Part shown: positions 3,344 through 6,966 of the stretch, piece after piece
Layout: each line of letters starts with the position of its first letter
Position numbering within the stretch: position 1 is the stretch's first letter
NCBI GenBank assembly: GCA_030037815.1
Contig: JASHPZ010000023.1
Coordinates: 1-32,077 of the forward strand
Direction of reading: 5' to 3'
DNA from: Thermoplasmata archaeon
Lineage (GTDB): Archaea; Thermoplasmatota; Thermoplasmata; Lutacidiplasmatales; UBA184
DNA length: 32,077 nt
Notes under the pieces: generated by a model
The model's input: only the letters and a program-made list of their open reading frames with translations
Databases searched by the model: none
Told to the model about the DNA's origin: nothing
Position numbers and translations under genes: made by a program

Positions 3344-4760
3344 GGATCTCCTCCTCGTAGAACCGCTCGGCGAAATCGGACTCGGCCGCGCGGATGGAGA
3401 GCGGCCCGGTCCCCTCCTGTCCGAAGTAGTTCAGCAGCGCCGCCGCCGCGCCGAGGCGCACGGCGCGGCTCTTGAGCCGCGGCGAGAACTTCGGGAATCC
3501 GGTCGTCTTGAGGGCTTTCTCCGACACGCCGCGGAGGCGGTCGTAGAGCGGCCGCTCGAGGCGGATCGGCCGGGAACGGAAGCGCGCGGGAACGAGCGGG
3601 TGTCCGGTCTGGATCGCGTGGACGAGCGTGAGATGGTCCCGGATCGGGCCGGCGAGGTCGAACGTGATCTCCCCGAGCTCGAGCCGCTCGGCGCTCGCTT
3701 CCACCGCACGGAACCGGGCGCGGGTCATCGGGTGAAAGCGCAGCAGCATCCGGTCCTCCAGGGCCGCGAAGTTCGGGTCCGCGATCGTCGTCCAGTAATC
3801 CTGCGCGCCCGCGGTCCGGACGTTGTAGTTCACGGAGAAGAAGGAGCGGAAGGTGTACGGCCCGACGGTGCCGAGGGTCGTTTCCCACTTCACCTCGCGC
3901 TGCTCCATCACGAGCTTGAGCGGTTCGACCATTCCGCGGTACTTGAACCAGTCGTTGAATTCGGGGACGATGAAGTTGAACGTGCGGCCGGTGTACGCGG
4001 AACCGACCCGAAGGAACTGCACCGGCGTGATCCCGCCGCAGTACCGGTTGCGGCCGGGCAGCCCGTGCGCGGGGACCCCGCTGCGGGGGTTGCCGCGGAC
4101 GAGGCCGTCGATCGAGAAGGTCTTGCCGGTCCCGGGCGGCCCGAACAGCGCGAGGTGGAACCCCGTCGCGCCGGTCGGCCGGCCGGTCGGGGCGAGCAGC
4201 GGGACGTCCGCCAGCGCGTACTGCTGCAGGATCGCGATCAGCGAGTCGAAGTAGAGTTCGTCTCCGAACAGTTCCCGCAGGTAGCCGGCGAGTCGGTCGA
4301 CCGTGAACGTGCGACCGAACGCGACCGTCGCCTCGAGGCGGTCCCGGAGCACCTCCCGGAGGTGGTCGAGGAACTCGGAGTCCATCGCCCGGATCTCCGC
4401 GCGCTCGTCGGGCACCGGCTGGACGGCCGACGGCTCGATCGACTCGCTCCGGACGACTTCGTCCGCCAGCAGCTGTCGTAGCTCTTCCGGGTACGGAACC
4501 TGGTAGGTCCGATCCCCCCGGCCTTCCGGCAGCTCGAGCAGGAAACCGCGCCGTTTGAGGCGCGTGAGGAGTCGGTTTGCGTCCTCGAACACCCGTTCCC
4601 GCAAGAGGCGCGTTCGCAACTCGGAGGCGTGGAACTTCGCGGGCTGGTGCGCGACTCCGCGCAGGGTGCGGCGGCGGTCCGAGTCGGAGACGAGGTCCGC
4701 GAGCACGCGGGCGACGGGGACGTCGGCCGCGACGATCTCGAGGCCGGCGGACGCTGCCAC
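3306..4760 (-). CDS. MCM-like AAA+ ATPase with N-terminal winged-helix-like region
   Basis: This 484-residue protein has a Walker A GPPGTGKT at residues 207-214. The residues around 261-295 (FNFIVPEFNDW, then EPLKLVMEQREVKW) line up in order with the Walker B and helix-insert/pre-sensor hairpin region of MCM-type ATPases (D-E-F-D-K, then E-A-M-E-Q). A sensor-1-like Asn follows (SVNYN, about 309-313), then an arginine-finger-like LLRF (339-342). The Walker B aspartate position is a proline, while the glutamate is kept. Residues about 40-100 have a winged-helix pattern. The C-terminal 120 residues are helical and resemble an AAA+ lid. It lacks the MCM N-terminal OB/zinc domain and is shorter than an MCM helicase. 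The GTG start at 4760 follows a TATA-like box shared with the divergent resolvase gene. A nucleic-acid-remodelling role is inferred; MoxR-type or other pre-sensor-1-insert ATPases are alternatives. Confidence 0.75.
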   Translation of the reverse strand: MAASAGLEIVAADVPVARVLADLVSDSDRRRTLRGVAHQPAKFHASELRTRLLRERVFEDANRLLTRLKRRGFLLELPEGRGDRTYQVPYPEELRQLLADEVVRSESIEPSAVQPVPDERAEIRAMDSEFLDHLREVLRDRLEATVAFGRTFTVDRLAGYLRELFGDELYFDSLIAILQQYALADVPLLAPTGRPTGATGFHLALFGPPGTGKTFSIDGLVRGNPRSGVPAHGLPGRNRYCGGITPVQFLRVGSAYTGRTFNFIVPEFNDWFKYRGMVEPLKLVMEQREVKWETTLGTVGPYTFRSFFSVNYNVRTAGAQDYWTTIADPNFAALEDRMLLRFHPMTRARFRAVEASAERLELGEITFDLAGPIRDHLTLVHAIQTGHPLVPARFRSRPIRLERPLYDRLRGVSEKALKTTGFPKFSPRLKSRAVRLGAAAALLNYFGQEGTGPLSIRAAESDFAERFYEEEIRAREGRHGRAAA

Positions 4761-4786
4761 CGGCCGCCTCCACTCCCGCGACCGCC

Positions 4787-4797
4787 TTTATATTAAT
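4787..4797. promoter_or_regulatory. Shared divergent TATA box between AAA+ ATPase and resolvase genes
   Basis: The A/T run tttatattaat stands in very GC-rich DNA. Its centre is about 26 bases before GTG 4817 on the plus strand, the distance expected for a leaderless archaeal transcript. On the minus strand it reads attaatataaa and lies about 30 bases before GTG 4760. One box, or two overlapping boxes, could drive both genes. Confidence 0.65.
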
Positions 4798-4816
4798 CTC
4801 CACGACAACCGGCGGC

Positions 4817-5365
4817 GTGGTCGGCCGCAGCTTCTCCGGCTACGAACGCGAGCTCCGCACGGTGCTCGAAGGAGACCCCGCGACGGTCCGCGCGTACGCG
4901 CGCGGCCTCCCGCCGGGAGCGCGCACCGAGTTCGAGCGCCTCGTCGACCACCCGTACCTGGTCGTCCGCGGCGCGGGGTCGCTGGGCTTCGACCTCGTGG
5001 CGCTCCGCCGCGACTTCGCCTTCCCGATCGAAGTCAAGGCGTCGTCCGAGGCCGTGATCCGATTCACCGCCGCGAGCGGGCGGGCGAACGCCCAACTGGA
5101 GGCGCACCGGCGCGCGGTCGCCCGGGTCGGCCTGACCGTCATCTACGCCTACCGGCGCATCGGCCTCCGCGGAGAGGAGCCGTGGCGCCTCTACGTGGCC
5201 GGGGCGGTCCCTTCGTCCGGGGTGCTGGGCACGGTCTGCCGTCGCCTCCCACCGGTCAACTCGACCCGGGAGGGCAACGCGATCCTCCGATGGGAGGAGG
5301 GCCAGCCCCTCTCCGAGTTCCTTCTCCGGACCCGGTTCCTCGAGCGCCCGGTCGCGGCCGGCTGA
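4817..5365 (+). CDS. hjc: Hjc-type Holliday junction resolvase (archaeal, PD-(D/E)XK nuclease)
   Basis: This predicted endonuclease cuts four-way DNA junctions during recombination. In the 182-residue protein the nuclease core runs TEFERLVDHPYLVVRGAGSLGFDLVAL then FPIEVKAS, giving the Hjc/PD-(D/E)XK residues Glu38 or Glu40, the R-x-x-G-S loop, Asp59, and Glu72-x-Lys74. About 35 residues precede the core (starting with GYERELRTVLEGD), making it longer than the usual 120-140-residue Hjc. GTG 4817 is chosen because it sits about 26 bases after a TATA box and starts the homologous part; the frame stays open further upstream, inside the divergent ATPase gene. Its TGA overlaps the thiolase ATG by one base, so the two are probably co-transcribed. 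The basis is motif recognition; activity is inferred. Confidence 0.8.
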   Translation: MVGRSFSGYERELRTVLEGDPATVRAYARGLPPGARTEFERLVDHPYLVVRGAGSLGFDLVALRRDFAFPIEVKASSEAVIRFTAASGRANAQLEAHRRAVARVGLTVIYAYRRIGLRGEEPWRLYVAGAVPSSGVLGTVCRRLPPVNSTREGNAILRWEEGQPLSEFLLRTRFLERPVAAG

Positions 5366-6501
5366 TGTCCGTCCACGTCGCGGCCGTCGGGTACGCGAAG
5401 TTCGGGAAACGGCCGGAAGACCTGGTCGCGCTGGCGGCCGAAGCGGGCACTGCCGCCCTCGAAGGGGTGGGCCGGAAGCCGGTCGACCTCCTGGTCGTCG
5501 GCAGCATGATGGCCCACGGGCCGCACGGTCCGGAGGCGCTGCTGCCGCGGCTCGCCGGTCGGCTGAGCCTCGAGTCGGCGGGGGGGCTGCGGGTCGACGG
5601 CGCGAGCGGCACCGGCGCGATGGCGTTCCATGCGGCGGTGCTCGCGCTCGAGTCCGGGCGGTATCAGCGGGCCCTCGTCGTGGCCGCCGAGAAGATGACC
5701 GACCGCTCGACCCCCGACAACACCCGCGACCTGGCGGCCTCGCTGCACTCGAGCGAGGTGGCCGCGGGGGCGACAATGCCCGCGCTCGCGGCGATCGTCG
5801 CGCGTCGGTATCTCGACCGATTCGAGTTCGCGACCGACGTGATCGACGCGGCCGCGCACCACGCGCGGTCGATGGCGCTCGACAATCCCAACGCGCATTT
5901 CTTCGGAAAACCGGTGACCGAGGCGGAGATCGCGGCGAGCAAGCCGGTGGCCCTCCCGCTCCGGTTGATGCACTGCTCCGCGATCTCGGACGGAGCCGTC
6001 GGGGTCGTCCTGGAGCGCGGGCATGGCCCCACGACGGTGCTGGGGCTCGGGCAGGGATTCGAGGCCCTCCGCCTCGTCGACCGGGCGGACCTGACGACGT
6101 TCGCCGCGACGCGGATCGCCGCGGCGCGGGCCTACGAGTCGGCCCACCTGACCCGGAAGGAGGTCCAGGTCGCCGAGCTCCACGACGCGTTCAGCCCGTT
6201 CACCCTGATCCACATGGAGGACATCGGCCTCTGCGGACCGGGCGAGGCGCCGGGCTGGCTCAGGAAAGGTTGGGTCCGTCGCGACGGCCGCGTACCGGTG
6301 AACCCCTCGGGCGGGGTAGTCGGGCGGGGCCACCCGGTGGCGGCGAGCGGACTCGCCGAGATCGCGGAGGTCGCTCTCCAGCTGGCGGGCGATGCGGGAC
6401 GGCATCAGGTCGCGCACCGCCCCAAGGTCGGACTCGCCCAGGCCGTGAGCGGGATCGCGTCGCAGAATTTCGTCACGATCCTGGGGCGGGGCGCCGCATG
6501 A
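5365..6501 (+). CDS. Thiolase-like protein (SCP-x/acetyl-CoA acetyltransferase family) lacking the nucleophilic cysteine
   Basis: The 378 residues match the thiolase fold end to end, including AISDGAVGVVLE, the ELHDAF motif (His273, the N-E-A-F/H-D-x-F equivalent) and SGGVVGRGHPVAASG with the catalytic His323. The loop that normally carries the acyl-accepting cysteine (C-A-S-G) reads VDGASGTGA, placing Gly79 (codon GGC at 5599-5601) where Cys is expected. Archaeal thiolases of this branch work as a complex with a DUF35 zinc-ribbon/OB protein and HMG-CoA synthase; here the DUF35 gene follows with an ATGA overlap, but no HMG-CoA synthase is in view. Without the cysteine, ordinary Claisen chemistry is not expected. 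The protein may be a structural partner, a CoA-ester retro-aldolase (DUF35/thiolase-fold pairs do this in bacterial steroid degradation), or a sequencing error could have turned TGC into GGC. Confidence 0.85.
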   Translation: MSVHVAAVGYAKFGKRPEDLVALAAEAGTAALEGVGRKPVDLLVVGSMMAHGPHGPEALLPRLAGRLSLESAGGLRVDGASGTGAMAFHAAVLALESGRYQRALVVAAEKMTDRSTPDNTRDLAASLHSSEVAAGATMPALAAIVARRYLDRFEFATDVIDAAAHHARSMALDNPNAHFFGKPVTEAEIAASKPVALPLRLMHCSAISDGAVGVVLERGHGPTTVLGLGQGFEALRLVDRADLTTFAATRIAAARAYESAHLTRKEVQVAELHDAFSPFTLIHMEDIGLCGPGEAPGWLRKGWVRRDGRVPVNPSGGVVGRGHPVAASGLAEIAEVALQLAGDAGRHQVAHRPKVGLAQAVSGIASQNFVTILGRGAA

Positions 6502-6881
6502 CCGCGGACGGGTCGCTCGAGGTCCGCCGGTGCGAGACGTGTCAATCTCGGTACCTGCCGACCGACGGCCCGTGCCCCCAGTGCGGGGGCCTCGCGAGCC
6601 TTCCGCTCGCCGTCCCGCCGCGCGGGTCGGTGCTCGCCGCCACGGAGCTCCAGTACCCGGCCGCCGGCTGGACCGCGCCGCACCCGATCGCGCTGGTCGA
6701 GGTCGCGGAGGGCGTACGGCTGCTCGGGATCGTCGAAGGTCCCTTGCCGGCGACCGGCGAGCTTGTCGAGGTCCGGCGGGACGGCGAGGTGTACCGCGTG
6801 CGGGCCGCCCCGCGCGAACGCGGGGAGGGGGACTCTCCGAAGGCCGGTTCGGCCGCGCCTTCCTTTGAACCCCCGAGGTGA
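6498..6881 (+). CDS. DUF35 zinc-ribbon/OB-fold acyl-CoA-associated protein
   Basis: This 127-residue protein begins with a rubredoxin-like zinc ribbon (CETC at residues 12-15, CPQC about 12 residues later). An OB-fold follows, running from about GSVLAATELQYPA to GEVYRVRAA. The family (DUF35/OB_aCoA_assoc) binds thiolase-like enzymes and channels the CoA ester. The ATGA overlap with the thiolase-like gene predicts translational coupling and a physical complex. The conserved domain ends near position 6815; the last 20 or so residues (Gly/Ser/Pro-rich, ending SFEPPR) are encoded on the strand opposite the 3' half of the tRNA-Ser gene. They look like read-through into tRNA antisense sequence and not like part of the fold. 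Confidence 0.85.
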   Translation: MTADGSLEVRRCETCQSRYLPTDGPCPQCGGLASLPLAVPPRGSVLAATELQYPAAGWTAPHPIALVEVAEGVRLLGIVEGPLPATGELVEVRRDGEVYRVRAAPRERGEGDSPKAGSAAPSFEPPR

Positions 6882-6933
6882 AACCACCACTGGATTAGCA
6901 ATCCAGCGCCTTGCCGGGCTGGGCCATCCCCGC
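6819..6933 (-). tRNA. tRNA-Ser(GCU), type II, with a probable T-loop intron
   Basis: On the minus strand G1 is at 6933 and G73 at 6819. The acceptor halves gcgggga and tccccgc pair at all seven positions. The D-stem is the 3-bp serine type (gcc/ggc) with A14 and G18G19. The anticodon stem ctgga/tccag encloses loop ttgctaa, giving anticodon GCU (codons AGC/AGU). The variable arm ggtg-gttt-cacc is long, as in serine tRNAs. The T-stem ggggg/ccccc has loop ttcaaa...t interrupted by 31 bases. The discriminator G73 is usual for archaeal tRNA-Ser and CCA is not encoded. The mature length would be 84 nt. A TATA-like gccttaaggc lies about 28 bases upstream. Without the intron the T-arm and acceptor cannot close. 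Confidence 0.85.
6833..6863 (-). other. Putative 31-nt tRNA intron at position 59/60 of tRNA-Ser
   Basis: The insert lies between A59 (6864) and T60 (6832) of the T-loop. It can form its own hairpin: gaaggc near its 5' end pairs with gccttc near its 3' end. Its first bases (gga) can pair with the first bases of the 3' exon (tcc), as in the core helix of a bulge-helix-bulge splice site, but I could not draw a perfect 3-4-3 motif, so it would be of the relaxed type. The exact boundary could shift by one base or so. On the other strand it encodes part of the DUF35 C-terminal tail. Confidence 0.7.
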
Positions 6934-6956: not shown

Positions 6957-6966
6957 GCCTTAAGGC
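6957..6966 (-). promoter_or_regulatory. TATA-like box of tRNA-Ser
   Basis: The palindromic gccttaaggc is centred about 28 bases upstream of G1 of the tRNA and sits in otherwise GC-rich DNA. Confidence 0.5.

Follow-up and report, generated by a model that had tools for sequence, protein, structure and literature searches.

A conserved T-loop intron in the tRNA-Ser(GCU) gene of a Thermoplasmata archaeon encoding an alpha'-type EndA without the CSL loop

The window analysed here, a stretch of 32,077 nucleotides from the draft genome of a Thermoplasmata archaeon, carries on its minus strand a tRNA-Ser(GCU) gene that is interrupted in the T-loop, between tRNA positions 59 and 60, by a 31-base intron. 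The intron is real and conserved and, judging from the sequence data at hand, very probably spliced. We regard it as highly probable that the gene is functional, with a bulge-helix-bulge (BHB)-type intron excised by the alpha'-type EndA endonuclease of the same organism and exons joined by the RtcB ligase. Judged by its motif, this is a BHB intron of the known kind; the lineage, the concentration of such introns at a single site and the type of EndA that accompanies them are new. The sequence-only reading from which this analysis set out had placed the intron at 6833–6863 on the minus strand, at 59/60, and proved exact to the base.

The gene with its intron spans 6819–6933 on the minus strand (115 nt), limits given by the sequence parse and by an out-of-sample covariance model. 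Exon 1 (6864–6933, minus strand, 70 nt) contains tRNA positions 1–59, comprising the 5' strand of the acceptor, the D-arm, the anticodon arm, a long variable arm, the 5' strand of the T-stem and the T-loop bases UUCAAA; its end coincides with spliced base 70, where the matches of about 82 relatives break off. The anticodon GCU (6897–6899, minus strand) sits in a loop of 7 nt, TTGCTAA, on a stem of 5 bp (CTGGA/TCCAG). The intron, GGAAGGCGCGGCCGAACCGGCCTTCGGAGAG, occupies 6833–6863 on the minus strand, and exon 2 (6819–6832, minus strand, 14 nt) supplies positions 60–73 with the 3' strands of the T-stem and the acceptor and the discriminator G73; CCA is not encoded. The intron-less form pairs 7/7 in the acceptor stem, 5/5 in the anticodon stem and 5/5 in the T-stem, so that the earlier claim of a complete acceptor and T-stem with G73 in place is confirmed by our parse. 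The predicted spliced junction between A59 and U60 reads ...GGTTCAAA|TCCCCC.... Intact Ser(GCU) orthologues of genus g17, from which the intron is absent, have the T-loop TTCAAAT and read TTCAAATCCCCC across the intron site, and it is for this reason that the limit is set at 59/60 and not at 58/59.

A TATA-like box, CCTTAAGG (6958–6965, minus strand), precedes the gene by about 30 nt; it is a putative promoter element and would provide for transcription; a simple TATA-like motif occurs in the matching upstream region of 14 of 28 tRNA genes of this genome, as against 1.5% of random windows. A convergent ORF on the plus strand (6270–6881), with zf-ChsH2 and OB_ChsH2 domains and adjoining a thiolase at 4555–6501, overlaps the tRNA gene antisense by about 63 nt, a stretch that takes in the intron as well as exon 2. 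Past the OB domain (from about 6777) the ORF has no recognised domain.

Conventional detection passes the gene by. ARAGORN makes no tRNA-Ser(GCU) call at 6819–6933 of the window, Rfam misses the gene at its gathering threshold, and RF00005 at a permissive threshold gives a mis-paired 60-nt tRNA match of 22.9 bits with the variable arm folded onto the acceptor. Since such genes are overlooked or given wrong ends by ARAGORN and the Rfam tRNA model, tRNA counts in these genomes can be too low. We built two covariance models from T-loop-intron tRNAs. Model R1 was trained on nine hand-assembled genes of the same genome, the window gene among them, which makes its score at the window gene circular; model R2 was trained on 12 such tRNAs from other species, with Ser(GCU) excluded entirely. 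Within the window R2 matches exactly 6819–6933 on the minus strand (73.8 bits, E = 8.1e-16), and an ordinary tRNA-Thr comes second. The tRNA-Ser(GCU) gene with its T-loop intron is not a chance match.

The window gene is one of many. T-loop introns at 59/60 interrupt 11 of the approximately 37 tRNA genes found in the genome, about a third, in an inventory built from targeted searches of a draft of 94 contigs and 89% completeness. Weak, shortened tRNA matches in this genome represent additional T-loop-intron genes. Nine were assembled by hand, namely Ser(GCU), Ser(GGA), Ser(CGA), Arg(UCU), Arg(UCG), Glu(CUC), Ala(GGC) and two Gly(UCC), all with introns of 29–33 nt between 59 and 60, and a search of the genome with R1 added His(GUG) and Lys(UUU) to bring the number to 11. 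The pair of tRNA-Gly(UCC) and tRNA-Ser(UGA) genes is present twice, near contig ends (G000:C66:12-259 and G000:C92:44075-44316), with near-identical exons and different T-loop introns; this is either a duplication or a case of two strains in one bin.

Inserts were also observed elsewhere in the tRNA genes. The tRNA-Arg(GCG) gene (G000:C87:37720-37825; L028/L049) has an apparent D-loop intron and is read by ARAGORN as a tRNA-Ser with an anticodon intron, and in a tRNA-Met gene (G000:C92:9125-9229; L020) an insert of about 28 nt fits the D-loop better than the anticodon loop in which ARAGORN places it. The tRNA-Trp(CCA) gene (G000:C69:324-423; L034) contains an anticodon-loop intron of 88 nt and so resembles in length the introns that hold a box C/D guide RNA in other euryarchaea. 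The tRNA-Lys(UUU) gene shows an apparent second insert upstream of its T-loop intron in 8 of 8 genomes (L048 in this genome, and L246, L257, L258, L260, L262, L265 and L267).

The case for a BHB motif rests on the comparison of introns. A common register accommodates all nine hand-assembled introns. In it the T-stem leads into U54 U55 C56 R57, which stand opposite bases -3 to -6 of the intron; next come a bulge of 3 nt, A58 A59 ^ N, the hairpin of the intron and a second bulge of 3 nt, N N ^ U60. In the window gene (all coordinates on the minus strand) the exon contributes U54 U55 C56 A57 (6866–6869) to the proposed central helix, opposite the intron strand GGAG (6835–6838), giving U.G, U-A and C-G pairs and A57 opposite G. 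The 5' bulge A58 A59 ^ G falls at 6863–6865 and the 3' bulge A G ^ U60 at 6832–6834, and the hairpin GAAGGC/GCCTTC with CGG/CCG, which both the precursor fold and the covariation identify as the inner helix, extends over 6839–6862. The predicted splice sites are accordingly 6864/6863 (5') and 6833/6832 (3'). Position 59/60 is a listed non-canonical intron site (PMC4090602).

When the nine introns are aligned, 93.4% of the structure cells are paired, a value reached in none of 500 shuffles (the alignment includes the tRNA stems), and two-sided changes are found at all nine inner-helix pairs. We then tallied the motif in a set of 132 distinct introns drawn from many species; the scripted parses of L042, L043, L249, L266 and L035, which failed or were ambiguous, are not part of the tally, and the two Gly(UCC) genes of this genome were parsed by hand. 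C56 stands opposite G in 132 of 132 introns and U60 is equally invariant (132/132), and base -6 tracks base 57, being C in 44 of the 47 cases with G57. With A57 (n = 85) it is G in 71, U in 11 and another base in 3, and the excess of G over U may reflect a shift of register or an A-G pair that is functional; for introns ending in GGAR such a shift, with C56 against -6, U55 against -5 and U54 against -4, is possible and equally admissible. Inner-helix positions are paired in 77–94% of the 132 introns compared with 43–65% after shuffling of the 3' arms among introns, and each position shows six pair types. The 3-4-3 spacing is kept and covaries, strictly so in G57 tRNAs (G-C); in A57 tRNAs such as the window gene the fourth pair is A opposite G. 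This pairing is non-standard, so that some tolerance on the part of the enzyme is needed. The initial reading of a tRNA-Ser(GCU) with a T-loop intron at 59/60, probably of BHB type, in a Thermoplasmata genome is borne out.

Energy folding of 27 Ser(GCU) precursors retains the T-stem and the inner hairpin in 26, with the central UUC fully paired in only a few and mostly replaced by a symmetric 7x7 loop. The BHB fold sought in the precursor is thus found in its outer and inner helices and seldom in its central one, and because the energy model seldom forms that helix, its support comes from covariation and invariance more than from stability. The whole gene has a single-sequence fold z-score of -2.9, and the T-arm region scores between -0.65 and -1.8; folding of single sequences is insufficient for this motif, and covariation was used for that reason.

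The endonuclease gene is located outside the window. The genome contains a single EndA frame of 354 aa with two PF01974 domains, an enzyme of the alpha' type (two fused repeats, homodimer-type) in which the second repeat is catalytic. Alignments, including those within the family, show that the three catalytic residues (Tyr, His, Lys) and the Arg equivalent to A. fulgidus R280 are conserved, and the best solved relatives by sequence include 1r0v/2gjw. We found no separate beta subunit gene in the draft genome, where both PF01974 matches at E ≤ 10 share one frame, and 22 draft genomes (19 from the archaeon's own family, here f1, and 3 sisters) have one match each to the EndA protein. The sequence-only reading had suggested an endonuclease of relaxed specificity, a suggestion that this enzyme does not bear out: the CSL loop insertion, which in broad-specificity enzymes lies beside the active site and carries a key Lys, is absent from it, the catalytic repeat reading YGSRVGDRLELSL where A. 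pernix 3p1z has a longer stretch, and no insertion at the CSL site appears in any EndA relative examined by alignment. The RtcB ligase is encoded in the same genome (PF01139, 570 bits, E = 1e-171). EndA is 60–80% identical to its counterparts in soil Thermoplasmata MAGs (the YP, JOPF, UBA61, UBA184 and AcS/SubAcS series), of which the AcS/SubAcS genomes form the Ca. Lutacidiplasmatales set with a GC content of about 69% (PMC9287336); the GC content of the window is 71%. On the basis of EndA similarity the host may belong among the Lutacidiplasmatales-type soil Thermoplasmata.

We propose that in the precursor the T-stem would be retained as the outer helix, that U54-U55-C56-R57 would form a short central helix with the last-but-two four intron bases (R/C-G-R-R), and that the hairpin of the intron itself would serve as the inner helix. 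The sole EndA, being of the alpha' homodimer type, would most likely cleave both bulges, at A59^G and G^U60, whereupon RtcB would ligate the exons into a normal cloverleaf; the identical device would operate in 10 further tRNA genes of this genome and across f1. As UUCR is present in the T-loop of every tRNA, one half of the motif is available in each of them, and this would account for the recurrence of one position in many isoacceptors. Published statements of narrow alpha'2 specificity (PMC6379350, PMC4033280) count as evidence against splicing by an alpha'2 EndA.

Could the gene instead be a disrupted pseudogene, a tRNA broken by an insertion and out of use? It escapes ARAGORN and Rfam, and another copy could be missing from a draft of 89% completeness. 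A second Ser(GCU) gene, which the sequence-only reading had set against its own claim, was looked for in this draft and not found, leaving the window gene as the sole AGC/AGU-decoding tRNA gene found in the genome, and the TATA-like box upstream is kept. Comparison with relatives points the same way. A search of 101 family genomes with the spliced Ser(GCU) sequence gave matches that stop at base 70, right after A59, in about 82 of them; in four genomes of genus g17 the gene is intron-free, matched over 1–84 at 90–93% identity, and none of the 101 genomes has a full intact match beside a disrupted one. The exons of the orthologues are near-invariant (median identity 99%) and fully paired, and the introns drift (71%). 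Decay of the gene is very unlikely indeed because the intact g17 orthologue has the form of the predicted spliced product, the hairpin shows compensatory changes and no second Ser(GCU) gene was found. It is also highly unlikely that the 31 bases persist in the mature tRNA as an extended T-loop arm and are never excised. The insert is a stable hairpin that could in principle stack on the T-stem, but such an arm would part A58 from U60 in the packing of the T-loop against the D-loop, it is absent from the intact orthologues, the flanking UUCR/RGRR pattern suits a BHB and would be without purpose in a retained arm, and the arrangement would have to apply to about a third of the tRNA set. The fragmentation of the draft into 94 contigs might raise the thought of an assembly or binning artefact, which is refuted by dozens of independent assemblies with the same site and different intron sequences; its probability is practically nil.

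Other alternatives concern the origin and persistence of the introns. At least 13 isoacceptors share position and motif, as would be expected of a mobile class that has recently spread by transposition between tRNA genes in the manner of Thermoproteales. The intron bodies of different tRNAs in this genome, however, have a median identity of 0.63 against 0.59 for shuffled sequences, and largely the same isoacceptors bear introns across seven genera; this background-level identity and shared distribution indicate old, vertically kept introns, and recent transposition is accordingly unlikely, with a small chance of being correct. A similarly small chance is given to the idea that, with splicing unchanged, the introns are kept because they interrupt the T-arm and 3' end targeted by virus and plasmid integrases. 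Many archaeal integrases target the 3' halves of tRNA genes, and introns have been proposed as protection; the intron sequence is hypervariable between species, as this would predict, but drift without selection would yield equal variability.

T-loop introns at 59/60 are a feature of a whole family. In a class-wide sample of 400 genomes, f1 is represented by about 95 genomes in seven genera, all of which have several strong matches (3 to 9); as nine candidates were scored per genome, the counts saturate and are used as presence and not as numbers; other Thermoplasmata families mostly have none or one match per genome. The class-wide matches include plain tRNAs in some families (for instance the 75-nt matches in f31), and selected matches were parsed singly. 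Seven well-covered f1 genomes and the genome studied here have 8–14 isoacceptors with a T-loop intron each, in a stable set. The view that such an intron would be unusual for Thermoplasmata therefore stands with respect to the literature, in which it is unexpected, and fails within the lineage, where the window intron is one of 11 in its genome and the rule in f1.

Several families other than f1 have an intact Ser(GCU) gene (G050, G040, G071, G108, G086), and in family f3 this gene has a T-loop intron of 13 nt (G026, L345). Such introns affect a few genes per genome in the class beyond f1. T-loop introns of 13–15 nt (L345 and L287 in G026, L284 in G071) offer hardly any room for an inner helix and may be near the smallest spliceable size. 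In the sister family f2, Ser(GCU) is without a T-loop intron and has instead, close to the anticodon, an insert of about 40 nt (G025:C3:29595-29721, G027:C15:42997-43124). True 59/60 introns of 22–46 nt are present in Arg(UCU) of five other families (L268, L269, L271, L272, L279), one of these cases being a complete single-contig genome, and the Arg(UCU) intron is a candidate for the oldest of the T-loop introns. In the EndA tree g17 lies within f1, beside g19–g21 (support 91/88); the Ser(GCU) intron of f1 may have been gained once and later lost in places, or gained several times.

What do these introns imply for the known relation between endonuclease and intron position? Most reports of non-canonical introns concern Crenarchaeota and Thaumarchaeota (PMC8450103). 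Reviews link such introns to EndA enzymes with CSL or ASL loops, the alpha4 and alpha2 enzymes of euryarchaea being said to cleave canonical motifs only (PMC4033280, PMC6379350); the restriction of alpha'2 EndA lacking the ASL has been stressed again (PMC12397907). We found no report of T-loop introns in Thermoplasmata in the open-licence literature, and the word intron is absent from the description of Ca. Lutacidiplasmatales (PMC9287336). The combination of T-loop introns with an EndA that appears loop-less in alignments conflicts with the published rule tying non-canonical introns to loop-bearing enzymes. Here each well-covered genome of a large soil-archaeal family has 8 to 14 T-loop introns, with no EndA loop as far as can be told from sequence, which bears on whether position or motif shape limits splicing by EndA. 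We tentatively suggest, stopping just short of favouring the idea, that Thermoplasmata, chiefly the Lutacidiplasmatales-type family, may have taken a separate route to non-canonical introns, in which a loop-less alpha'2 EndA acts on introns settled at UUCR. Under such a scenario the exon half of the BHB would always be present and the intron would have to supply only its hairpin and a 3' end that matches. Position would then be free without a broad-specificity loop, and the rule of co-evolution between EndA type and intron position would need rewriting in terms of motif rather than position.

Comparison with known systems places these introns between several precedents. The non-canonical BHB introns of Thermoproteales and other Crenarchaeota are likewise short, of BHB type and present in many tRNAs per genome, with 59/60 among the listed sites; those of Thermoproteales are associated with a heterotetrameric EndA with a specific loop, many positions and signs of recent transposition (PMC4090602, PMC8450103), in contrast to the single site, the loop-less alpha' EndA and the lack of any sign of recent inter-gene copying in the genome studied here. 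The soil Asgard archaea Atabeyarchaeia and Freyarchaeia also have many non-canonical tRNA introns recognised from genome sequence, but they belong to another phylum and have introns in 92–95% of tRNA genes, often several per gene, at varied positions and without a T-loop focus (PMC11291895). Korarchaeum cryptofilum, in 2014 called the only archaeon with both an alpha2 EndA and non-canonical introns, resembles the present case in combining such introns with a homodimer-type enzyme and differs in that its EndA is reported to have a specific loop, at the site of which our EndA has no insertion (PMC4033280). The alpha'2 enzymes of Archaeoglobus fulgidus, Thermoplasma acidophilum and Ferroplasma acidarmanus are two-repeat single chains like the one described here, but have been discussed for canonical 37/38 introns, those of A. 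fulgidus and T. acidophilum being listed as narrow (PMC6379350, PMC8707768). A study of the homodimeric enzyme of Ferroplasma, a Thermoplasmata relative, states that such forms are able to cleave BHL-like motifs (PMC8707768), and such cleavage would suit a motif with A57 opposite G.
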